From Desulfobulbaceae bacterium UBA5123 (GTDB lineage: Bacteria > Desulfobacterota > Desulfobulbia > Desulfobulbales > UBA5123): DNA of 15,402 nucleotides. Below are positions 1,887-4,526 of this stretch, piece after piece. The notes under the pieces were generated by a model, which was not told where the DNA came from, searched no databases, and saw only the letters and a list, made by a program, of their open reading frames with translations. Within the stretch, counting starts at the first letter, position 1. Every line of letters begins with the position of its first letter. The DNA lies in NCBI GenBank assembly GCA_002415465.1, contig DHYT01000122.1, forward strand, positions 5,240-20,641. Reading direction: 5' to 3'. The translations under genes were made by a program, and so were the position numbers.

Positions 1887-4526
1887 ATGTTGCGCTATCG
1901 TTTGTTGCTCTTTCTTGTGTGCGCGATGTTGGCGCCCGCCGGTGTCTCGCAGGCGACTGCATCCGGCCATGGCCCGCATTGGGGGTACAGCGGCGCCGAG
2001 GGGCCTGCCAAGTGGGGAGGTTTGAGCCCCGAATTCGCGACCTGCGCCGCCGGCGCCCAGCAGTCGCCCATCGATATATCAAAGGCCGTGGAGGTGAAAC
2101 TCGGGCCCATCGAGTTTGATTACAAGGCGGCGCCGCTGGCCATCATCAACAATGGGCACACCATCCAGGTCAACTGCCCGCCAGGCAGTGGCGTCCGGAT
2201 CGCTGGCAAGGTCTACAAACTCTTGCAGTTTCATTTCCATAGCCCCAGCGAGAACACCAGCCATGGCAAGCCTTACGCCATGGAAGCGCATCTGGTTCAC
2301 AAAAACGATGCCGGCGAACTGGCGGTGGTCGGCGTCTGGTTGAAATCCGGGCAGATCAATCGGCTGCTCAGCACCCTGTGGGCCAACATCCCCGGCCAGG
2401 TGAACATCGAGCAAAAGCACCCATCCGTGTCGGTCAATCCGCTGGAATTGTTGCCGCCAGACGGCTCGTACTATCACTTCCCAGGCTCTCTGACCACCCC
2501 TCCCTGCACCGAGGGCGCGCAATGGTATGTGATGCAGAATCCCATCGAGGTCAGCCAGCCGCAGGTCGATCAATTTGTCGCGGCTCTTGGCGGCCATAAT
2601 GCTCGGCCGACAAACCCGCTGAACGGCCGGAGCGTGGTTTCCGTTGCCGCCGGGCCGTTGCAATTCGCCAATATCTTTACCGCACAGACATCGCACGCCG
2701 CACCGGCCGCTGGCGGCAATACGGGCCATGGGAAATCCGAGGTCAAGCACGGTCATGCCCCGGAGCATCACGATGCGGCCGAAAGTGAAGAGGCGTCGCC
2801 TACGCACTCCGCGATGCGCCAGAATAATTCGTCAATGGTTTACTGGCTGGGCGCGGGGAGTCTTGTCCTCGTCCTGGTTTCACTCGTTTTATTGCTTGCC
2901 AAAGGAGGCAACGGTTTGAATTTTCTCAATCGGATGAAGGTGGGCAGCCGACTGGCCCTGATCGTCGGCGTGTTGTTGCTGTTGATGGTGATTGTCGGTG
3001 TTTTTAGCATCATCAAGATGAAGCAGGTCGGTGAAGAACTGAAAAACATCGCCGAAAACGATATCCCGTTGATGCAATCCCTGTCGGAGATTTCCAACCA
3101 GGAGTTGGAGATGGCGATGCTGTTGGAGCGGGGGGCGAAACACGCCGAGGCCGATGAGATGAGTGAAGTCGGCCCGATCATGAATCAAATCGAATCCGTG
3201 GGCAACGAGGTTGCCGAACAGGTTAGAAAAGGTGAAAAGATTGCGTCCGAATGCATGGCAATGACCACGGAGATGGAAACCCGGTTGGAGTGCGAGAAGG
3301 TTCTCGCCGGGCTGAAAAATATTGAGGCCGAGCATAAGCAGGTGGAAGAGAACATGCTGCAATCACTTACCCTCTTCGGGCAGAACCAGAAGCATGAGGG
3401 TGAGCAGATGGCCAAATCCCTTGAAAAGGAGATTGATGATGTAGACCAAGCGCTTGCGGTGCTTTTGCGGGATATTGAACAGTTTACCGACAATGCTTCC
3501 AAAAATGCCGAGCATCTTGAGCAGCAGACGGTTCAGGTCACCATCGTTCTGCTGCTGGCGGCCATGGTGTTGGGCTTCGGCATGGGCGTGGTCGTCACCC
3601 GCAGCATCACCATGGTGTTGCGCGATGTGAAGGAGGTGGCCGATAACGTCACCTCCGCGAGCCTCCAGGTCAGCGCCGCCGCCCAGCAGATATCCCAGGG
3701 CGCCACCGAGCAGGCCGCCGCCGCCGAGGAATCCTCTTCCTCGGTTGACGAGATGTCTTCGATGATCAAGCAAAACGCCGACAATGCAAAGGAAACCGAG
3801 CGGATTGCCTCCCAGGCCGCAAGCGACGCCGACGAAGGCGGTCGCGCCGTGCGGCAGGCGGTTGACGCCATGCAGCAAATCGCCGACAAGATCTCGATCA
3901 TTGAGGAGATCGCCCGCCAGACCAACCTTCTGGCCCTCAACGCCGCCATCGAGGCGGCCCGGGCCGGCGAGCACGGCAAGGGATTCGCGGTGGTCGCCGC
4001 CGAGGTGCGGAAGCTTGCCGAAAGGAGTCAGACCGCGGCCGCCGAGATCAGCGTTCTCTCCGGCTCCAGTGTCGAGGTGTCCGAACGGGCTGGCCAGATG
4101 CTGGCGACCATGGTCCCCAATATCCAGAAAACCGCCAATCTGATACAGGAAATAAGTGCCGCCACCATCGAACAGAGCAGCGGCACCGATCAGATCAACC
4201 AGGCCATGCAGCAGTTGGATACGGTTATTCAGCAAAACGCCGGCGCTTCCGAGGAGATGGCGGCCACCGCCGAGGAATTGTCCGCCCAGGCGGAATCGCT
4301 GCAGGATAACATCGCTTCGCTGATCGACACCAAGGAGCGCGGCAACGCCGCCGGGAAAAGGGTGGCGGTCTCAAGGGCGGCCACCGGGAAAACCCGTGTG
4401 GCCCACATCGGTGCGGCAGGCGGGCCGCGTCGCGGCGGATTCAAGCAAGCGCAGCCGCAAATCGGGGTCAAGCTCGAGATGGGCGATGATGGTGATGACC
4501 TCGACAAGCAGTTCAAGGAGTATTGA
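1887..4526 (+). CDS. Alpha-carbonic anhydrase / methyl-accepting chemotaxis protein fusion receptor
   Basis: An 879-aa chemoreceptor. ATG 1887 is chosen over an in-frame upstream ATG at 1833 because GGAGG lies 6 nt before it and a signal peptide (1-25) follows. Residues 28-250 are an alpha-carbonic anhydrase (CO2 + H2O to bicarbonate + H+): zinc ligands His116, His118, His135; proton shuttle His91; Glu122 and Thr203 (Glu106/Thr199 of human CA II); Cys53 and Cys207 as the bacterial disulfide. Then come a His-rich linker (269-312), TM1 (318-338), a short cytoplasmic loop, TM2 (356-376), a periplasmic helical bundle (377-549), TM3 (551-574) and the signalling coiled coil with its hairpin tip (674-713, EIARQTNLLALNAAIEAARAG). 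The tail (827-879) ends in QFKEY, a possible CheR tether. No HAMP is recognisable. The enzyme faces the periplasm, so CO2, bicarbonate or local pH is the inferred cue. First gene of the che cluster. Confidence 0.95.
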   Translation: MLRYRLLLFLVCAMLAPAGVSQATASGHGPHWGYSGAEGPAKWGGLSPEFATCAAGAQQSPIDISKAVEVKLGPIEFDYKAAPLAIINNGHTIQVNCPPGSGVRIAGKVYKLLQFHFHSPSENTSHGKPYAMEAHLVHKNDAGELAVVGVWLKSGQINRLLSTLWANIPGQVNIEQKHPSVSVNPLELLPPDGSYYHFPGSLTTPPCTEGAQWYVMQNPIEVSQPQVDQFVAALGGHNARPTNPLNGRSVVSVAAGPLQFANIFTAQTSHAAPAAGGNTGHGKSEVKHGHAPEHHDAAESEEASPTHSAMRQNNSSMVYWLGAGSLVLVLVSLVLLLAKGGNGLNFLNRMKVGSRLALIVGVLLLLMVIVGVFSIIKMKQVGEELKNIAENDIPLMQSLSEISNQELEMAMLLERGAKHAEADEMSEVGPIMNQIESVGNEVAEQVRKGEKIASECMAMTTEMETRLECEKVLAGLKNIEAEHKQVEENMLQSLTLFGQNQKHEGEQMAKSLEKEIDDVDQALAVLLRDIEQFTDNASKNAEHLEQQTVQVTIVLLLAAMVLGFGMGVVVTRSITMVLRDVKEVADNVTSASLQVSAAAQQISQGATEQAAAAEESSSSVDEMSSMIKQNADNAKETERIASQAASDADEGGRAVRQAVDAMQQIADKISIIEEIARQTNLLALNAAIEAARAGEHGKGFAVVAAEVRKLAERSQTAAAEISVLSGSSVEVSERAGQMLATMVPNIQKTANLIQEISAATIEQSSGTDQINQAMQQLDTVIQQNAGASEEMAATAEELSAQAESLQDNIASLIDTKERGNAAGKRVAVSRAATGKTRVAHIGAAGGPRRGGFKQAQPQIGVKLEMGDDGDDLDKQFKEY
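2901..2918 (+). promoter_or_regulatory. Internal ribosome binding site and TTG start at the enzyme-receptor join
   Basis: Inside the fusion gene, AAAGGAGG (2901-2908) is followed after 7 nt by an in-frame TTG (2916-2918, Leu344). The encoded continuation NFLNRMKVGSRLALIVG reads like the usual N-terminus of a stand-alone MCP just before its first membrane helix. Initiation here would give a 536-aa receptor (2916-4526) without carbonic anhydrase. This is either the relic start of the ancestral receptor gene or an active second start; sequence alone cannot decide. Confidence 0.6.

Follow-up and report, generated by a model that had tools for sequence, protein, structure and literature searches.

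A chemoreceptor that probably carries a catalytic carbonic anhydrase ahead of its own sensor domain

What might an enzyme do at the outer end of a chemoreceptor, a kind of protein whose inputs are usually regarded as passive binding modules? The question is raised by a gene in a stretch of 15,402 nucleotides from Desulfobulbaceae bacterium UBA5123 (GCA_002415465.1, contig DHYT01000122.1, positions 5,240 to 20,641; hereafter the window). The gene, at 1887..4526 on the + strand, encodes 879 aa plus a stop and joins an alpha-carbonic anhydrase (CA) to a methyl-accepting chemotaxis protein (MCP). The sensing of CO2 or bicarbonate by swimming bacteria is poorly known, and searches for CA chemoreceptors and for chemotaxis to CO2 or bicarbonate found no description of a CA-MCP protein in the open-licence full text of PubMed Central (PMC), where subscription papers are mostly missing. 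We propose, with a probability of about 0.6, that this receptor brings its own CO2-converting enzyme, that its four-helix-bundle (4HB) sensor reads the product, and that the signal passes to CheA and CheW.

The frame runs from 1887 to 4526 (+) without interruption, and TTGGAGGAGTCTT precedes its ATG. According to hydropathy and an AlphaFold model (mean predicted local distance difference test score [pLDDT] 77.6, predicted TM-score [pTM] 0.40), the protein begins with a signal peptide, followed by the CA, a linker, transmembrane helices TM1 and TM2, the 4HB, TM3, and a long signalling hairpin. The signal peptide is a hydrophobic segment of about residues 1 to 25 (1887..1961, cleavage point placed by eye). 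Pfam, solved structures, fold, and conservation together place the CA domain at residues 26 to 252 (1962..2642), with Carb_anhydrase matching residues 39 to 252 (E-value 1.2e-39, 136.9 bits against a cut-off of 27). A linker with abundant small residues and His (residues 253 to 314, 2643..2828) is mostly predicted to be disordered, with pLDDT below 50 over residues 267 to 313. TM1 (residues 315 to 338, 2829..2900) is an extra membrane helix that accompanies the CA; it is followed by a short loop (2901..2939), TM2 (residues 352 to 376, 2940..3014), a 174-residue periplasmic 4HB sensor (residues 377 to 550, 3015..3536), and TM3 (about residues 551 to 575, 3537..3611). The sensor assignment follows from the model and from Pfam, in which TarH (346 to 436, E-value 6.8e-10) and 4HB_MCP_1 (349 to 447, E-value 6.6e-8) both score above cut-off. 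The cytoplasmic signalling hairpin (residues 576 to 815, 3612..4331) includes MCPsignal at 640 to 780 (E-value 5e-33, above cut-off), and the columns of its signalling tip are almost invariant in the receptor alignment. The protein ends in QFKEY (4509..4523), which has the form of a CheR/CheB-docking pentapeptide. The uninterrupted frame, signal peptide, alpha-CA, and MCP with its signalling tip that an earlier note had read from the letters are therefore all present. The receptor shares with 4HB MCPs of the Tar/Tsr type (TarH/4HB_MCP_1) the TM-4HB-TM-signalling layout, the tip, the docking pentapeptide pattern, and the che operon; it differs from them in that an enzyme, a linker, and a further membrane helix have been added at its N-terminus, and in that no HAMP is detected by Pfam.

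The DNA comes from a draft genome in 240 contigs that is 78.7% complete, which leaves some room for an assembly or sequencing error that joined two genes. We give that explanation almost no credence, as relatives with the same uninterrupted architecture exclude an assembly artefact or a lost stop. The architecture occurs without internal stops in genomes G003, G049, and G081, on contig L010, and on many other contigs; the full-length orthologue in G003, from the same genus, is 74% identical over residues 2 to 879. Genome G002 has both ends of the receptor located at contig edges. In a protein search that scored only the 7994 candidates with the most words in common, at least 46 proteins with both PF00194 and PF00015 were found among the 120 listed of 185 matches. 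Three further CA proteins (P0009, P0044, and P0047) have a 4HB or HAMP and end before any MCP domain, bringing the set of alpha-CA receptors to 49. Pfam confirmed the CA-MCP architecture in L009 (JAQYVW010000005.1), L010, L072, and L073, of which L009 encodes P0002 and L073 encodes P0017, so that these two are not additional cases. The assembly error that the earlier note had named as a possible refutation is thus set aside.

The enzyme's catalytic site is complete. The closest solved chain is the bacterial carbonic anhydrase 6im0 (E-value 9.4e-64), and when the CA portion of the AlphaFold model is compared with solved bacterial alpha-CAs, target-normalised TM-scores reach 0.93, with a root mean square deviation of 2.2 to 2.3 A. 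Besides the alpha-CA fold, the zinc ligands His116 (2232-2234), His118 (2238-2240), and His135 (2289-2291) and the pair Glu122 (2250-2252) and Thr203 (2493-2495) are all present, as is the shuttle His91 (2157-2159), each as the earlier note had named it; the conserved cysteines are Cys53 (2043-2045) and Cys207 (2505-2507). Across the 49 divergent alpha-CA receptors, the zinc ligands are conserved in 48, 49, and 49 proteins, Glu122, Thr203, and Cys207 in all 49, Cys53 in 48, and the shuttle His in 47, with Tyr in its place in P0058. Compared with the orthologue on L009, the window's receptor is 80% identical in the CA segment, 62% in the 4HB, and 90% in the signalling part, with ratios of nonsynonymous to synonymous substitution (dN/dS) of 0.086, 0.107, and 0.036, obtained by a simple counting method and with dS above 1.5 in all three segments; the linker is 32% identical, with dS saturated. 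The CA segment is under purifying selection, and the intact alpha-CA on this chemoreceptor is probably catalytic. Free-standing bacterial alpha-CAs (6im0 of Persephonella marina, 4c3t of Thermovibrio ammonificans, and 1kop of Neisseria) agree with it in fold and in catalytic residues but stand alone as enzymes, whereas the window's CA is part of a membrane receptor. The receptor is not the sole CA of its genome, which has three PF00484 matches.

The earlier note had the CA standing in for a sensor domain such as a 4HB, Cache, or PAS, and this part of its interpretation found no support in that form. The receptor retains a full 4HB flanked by two membrane helices of its own, and the CA is attached beyond this sensor through a linker for which disorder is predicted; the enzyme is an addition to the receptor and no replacement of its sensor. 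The part of the interpretation that stood is an intact, probably catalytic alpha-CA and hence an input related to CO2, bicarbonate, or protons. Close relatives that lack the CA (P0241 to P0245, 66 to 78% identity) mark the seam. The TM1-TM2 loop, KGGNGLNFLNRMK (also read as KGGNGLNFLNRMKVGSR), is where the start of CA-less relatives falls (MNFLNRMKVGSR), and four of them (P0241 and P0243 to P0245) begin there with MNFLNRMK[VI]GSR. Because the CA-less relatives begin at this loop, the window's gene looks like a membrane-anchored CA set before a complete ordinary chemoreceptor. No CA motif was found, in a search by motif only, in frames of at least 100 aa upstream of CA-less relatives in the short flanks of L053 to L056 and L058. 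Some CA-less proteins (P0246 of Thiovibrio sp. JS02, P0242, and L058 from about 1426) start with an extra TM1 helix, perhaps a remnant of CA loss or a miscalled start.

A FastTree tree of signalling domains was built from 40 of the 49 alpha-CA receptors, all six beta-CA receptors, and 98 of the 102 CA-less proteins. On it the alpha-CA label requires 17 changes, at least 10 of them forced by starred branches, and the beta-CA label two. On a tree of the CAs (48 of 49 receptors, 119 of 120 free-standing CAs), the receptor label requires 10 changes, at least 6 of them forced. These changes are gains or losses, not distinguished, and both trees have long branches.

A new finding is that an unrelated CA of the beta family, as identified by its profile and motifs, holds the same position as the alpha-CA in six related receptors. 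Four of them (P0282, P0283, P0292, and P0299; PF00484, the beta-CA family) were found with the receptor part as query, at 44 to 46% identity over 99% of the query, and have the order N-terminal hydrophobic segment, beta-CA, His-containing linker, TM1, TM2, sensor, TM3, and MCP. Two more, L070 (1019 aa, with HAMP) and L071 (933 aa, with TarH and HAMP), came from whole genomes of the same order. All six match the Pro_CA profile with its Cys-His-Cys and Asp-Arg site (E-values 9e-35 to 2.6e-36 or near), and in all six the CSDSR and HTQCG motifs are intact and 53 residues apart. P0283 matches the solved CA 2a5v/1ym3 (E-value 1.7e-24); its model has pLDDT below 50 over most of the CA part, from an input alignment that mixed alpha and beta rows. 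PF00484 occurs in 138 of 193 genomes of the order, with receptor-length frames in at least two (G033 and G155), and no plasmid record covered 80% of P0283.

The beta-CA receptors are not of one kind. The portion of L070 that follows its CA finds matches in seven alpha-CA receptors, the strongest being P0058 (34% over 401 aa, E-value 3e-70); its linker, membrane hairpin, and sensor align with them, and a common linker stretch is shared; it matches none of 102 CA-less MCPs, a set that was picked by likeness to the window's receptor and so holds few HBM-like ones. P0058 has an HBM sensor above cut-off, and a tree of eight HBM-like receptors groups L070 with four alpha-CA receptors at 100/100 support, its exact position having supports of 50 to 69. 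The P0283 group and L071 are, after the CA, equally close to CA-less MCPs and to alpha-CA receptors, and L070 has no match to the other beta-CA receptors at cut-off; the beta-CA thus sits on at least two different scaffolds.

The receptor is also linked to the machinery that would receive its signal. A che gene lies directly downstream of the receptor in all five alpha-CA loci read with flanks (the window, L009, L010, L072, and L073/L044). In the window, the receptor gene is followed on the + strand by CheA (4657..6810), CheW (6869..7381), CheR (7434..8459), CheB (8576..9697), and a HEAT-repeat protein with a receiver domain that is the last gene of the che cluster (9820..11418), all identified by Pfam; the CheA and CheW scans began one codon past the likely ATG (at 4660 for the ATG at 4657 and at 6872 for the ATG at 6869). 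The gene order on L009 is that of the window, from CheA through CheW, CheR, and CheB as far as the beginning of the HEAT protein. In G081 the receptor is followed by CheW, CheA, CheR, CheD, CheB, a HEAT-receiver protein, and fructose-1,6-bisphosphatase, while CheR adjoins the receptor in L072 and CheW does so in L010. In G037, ordinary MCPs precede CheA and CheW (L074). FliM was found in nine of nine relatives, two of them from the same genus; it was not found in the window's own genome (78.7% complete), an absence that we infer to be due to incompleteness.

Taken together, these data suggest that the enzyme's reaction serves the sensing of CO2 or its products. A periplasmic CA, tethered through its flexible linker to the additional membrane helix, would quickly equilibrate CO2 with bicarbonate and protons beside the 4HB; the 4HB, or a larger helical-bundle sensor in some relatives, would read the product as pH or bicarbonate; and TM3 would relay the signal to the CheA and CheW encoded next door, so that the cell is steered. 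Swimming bacteria compare signals over a few seconds, whereas CO2 needs tens of seconds to hydrate without a catalyst, and a tethered CA would abolish this lag. The intact site, the long and flexible tether, and the occurrence of two unrelated folds at the same position argue that the reaction itself matters rather than a conformational signal specific to one fold. We argue that CO2 hydration was itself recruited, since the two folds sit on the same kind of scaffold behind flexible linkers. Linker length across receptors varies from 16 to 141 residues, and this variation, with the disorder predicted in the window's linker, speaks against rigid coupling.

Two other accounts compete with this one. 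The CA domain might itself be the sensor: bicarbonate, CO2, or some other anion such as sulfide would bind at the zinc site and alter the domain's contacts with the 4HB or the membrane, turnover being incidental. In favour of such a role, the CA lies farthest out in the receptor and has a strongly conserved active site; P0018 shows that a receptor with a degraded site exists; and the animal receptor phosphatase RPTP-gamma, which has an inactive CA-like ectodomain, is implicated in CO2 and HCO3- sensing (PMC11215419). A fold-specific contact is nevertheless hard to square with a predicted disordered linker of highly variable length, or with a beta-CA of unrelated fold in the same place, and a binding-only role predicts that catalytic residues would be lost more commonly than in one or two of 49 receptors. 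Direct transmission of CA occupancy is also less likely than product sensing by the 4HB because a complete 4HB with its own membrane-helix pair is kept and the CA hangs on a linker predicted to be disordered. We consider this account fairly unlikely. In the other account, which we rate as unlikely, the CA is a passenger: the receptor array would anchor a periplasmic CA for carbon supply or pH balance, and the receptor's signal would have nothing to do with CO2. Close CA-less relatives and the many free-standing CAs of the same order agree with it. So do the conserved charged positions of the 4HB, which are similar with an alpha-CA, a beta-CA, or no CA (42 of 49, 4 of 6, and 86 of 102 proteins compared); they fit a 4HB that reads something a CA can supply and equally fit a passenger. 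Against a passenger stand the joining of two CA folds to chemoreceptors, the position of the gene within a che cluster, and the observation that, among the 120 matches listed, long fusions of a CA to a signalling domain are to MCPs or are cut by contig ends; a passenger role, moreover, would give no reason to choose a receptor as the anchor.

Several points weigh against the proposal that the 4HB reads a product of the enzyme. A CA cannot shift an equilibrium, and so it would be informative only if CO2 close to the membrane has not equilibrated, as might result from the cell's own metabolism. The architecture is patchy: of 193 genomes of the order, 4 have frames of receptor length, and of 395 genomes of the phylum, 1 does. 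P0018 (912 aa) has Arg at the shuttle position and Gln at one zinc ligand, the sole zinc-ligand loss among the 49, and may be a counterpart of RPTP-gamma that lacks catalysis. Next to the two beta-CA loci, no che gene could be recognised; the neighbours scanned there are a PAS histidine kinase and a sigma-54 activator. Finally, L070 is the only case with signs that the CA was exchanged on a receptor already carrying one, and there the comparison set was poor in HBM-like receptors, and the equal closeness of the P0283 group and L071 to both kinds of MCP gives no such sign. A broader version of the product-sensing proposal is offered tentatively, at somewhat less than even odds: that these are enzyme-armed chemoreceptors with catalysis as their input, in which alpha- and beta-CAs were placed several times on 4HB and HBM-like scaffolds because the reaction matters. 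Non-equilibrium CO2 at the membrane, some of it due to release or uptake by the cell itself, would then be read as local pH or bicarbonate, allowing steering by carbon flux.

If the product-sensing proposal is true, an intact fast enzyme ahead of a sensor, drawn from two unrelated folds, would be a clear bacterial case of catalysis-coupled sensing, and a chemoreceptor with an enzymatic input module would be its new aspect. It would parallel solutions in animals. In taste cells, membrane-tethered carbonic anhydrase IV reportedly turns CO2 into protons for a nearby acid sensor; the working would be alike, in two separate animal proteins as against one receptor chain, so that this is an analogy and not kinship. 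By architecture, the nearest parallel appears to be RPTP-gamma and RPTP-zeta, which likewise have a CA-fold ectodomain on a transmembrane signalling protein. That ectodomain is said to have no catalytic activity, two of its three zinc-binding histidines having been replaced (PMC11215419), and the output of these proteins is a phosphatase, whereas the window's receptor has an intact zinc site, has MCPsignal and no tyrosine phosphatase domain by Pfam, and would act on CheA. Among chemoreceptors, TlpA of Helicobacter pylori is reported to respond to bicarbonate and acid (PMC5245789, PMC8406319); the excerpts of those papers give it a dCache sensor and mention no enzyme domain, in contrast to the enzyme carried here.

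The alpha-CA receptors are spread thinly. An organism was given for 6 of the 49 (Desulfobacteraceae, Desulfobacterales, Thermodesulfobacteriota, Candidatus Magnetoovum, Sterolibacterium [Betaproteobacteria], and Spirochaetia), of which we take Candidatus Magnetoovum to belong to Nitrospirota. Within the order, PF00194 occurs in 46 of 193 genomes, the receptor-length frames being in G000, G003, G049, and G081, with a contig-cut copy in G002; in the phylum it occurs in 31 of 395, receptor-length only in the window's own genome. The helices of P0050 lie, by hydropathy, at 344-362, 374-392, and 678-696. Source names for such proteins include 'carbonic anhydrase', 'carbonic anhydrase family protein', 'methyl-accepting chemotaxis protein', 'HAMP domain-containing protein', and 'hypothetical protein', and no NCBIfam model reached its cut-off for six representative receptors. 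The idea that 13 long CA-only proteins (P0003-P0005, P0011, P0013, P0015, P0020, P0023, P0024, P0026, P0035, P0036, and P0053) are other types of receptor was rejected, as Pfam detects no signalling domain in any of them and between two and four stretches of CA in each; the stretches in P0003, P0004, P0005, P0035, P0053, and others are tandem alpha-CAs. Other listed proteins combine a CA with PF16747, with metallophosphatase domains, or with LysM.

His-rich linkers occur in both alpha- and beta-CA receptors. The content of His is 7.3% in linkers, 4.5% in the CA part, and 1.7% after TM1, and the linker histidines might load zinc or buffer protons.

Elsewhere in the window, no RNA element reached Rfam's gathering scores. 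Upstream of the receptor gene, 2-1513 (-) encodes a membrane sensor cut by the window edge, with a Cys-rich N-terminus, a weak dCache_3 match below cut-off, and an ending that by eye resembles a histidine kinase. Between the receptor gene and cheA, an 18-bp inverted repeat (4553-4592, 94% complementary, 4-base loop) is a possible attenuator or processing site. The HEAT-repeat protein with a C-terminal receiver closes the che cluster in L073 (13504-15096) as it does in the window and is possibly an unusual output or adaptor. Past the che cluster, both have a fructose-1,6-bisphosphatase gene (window 12937-13962, L073 15350-16381).

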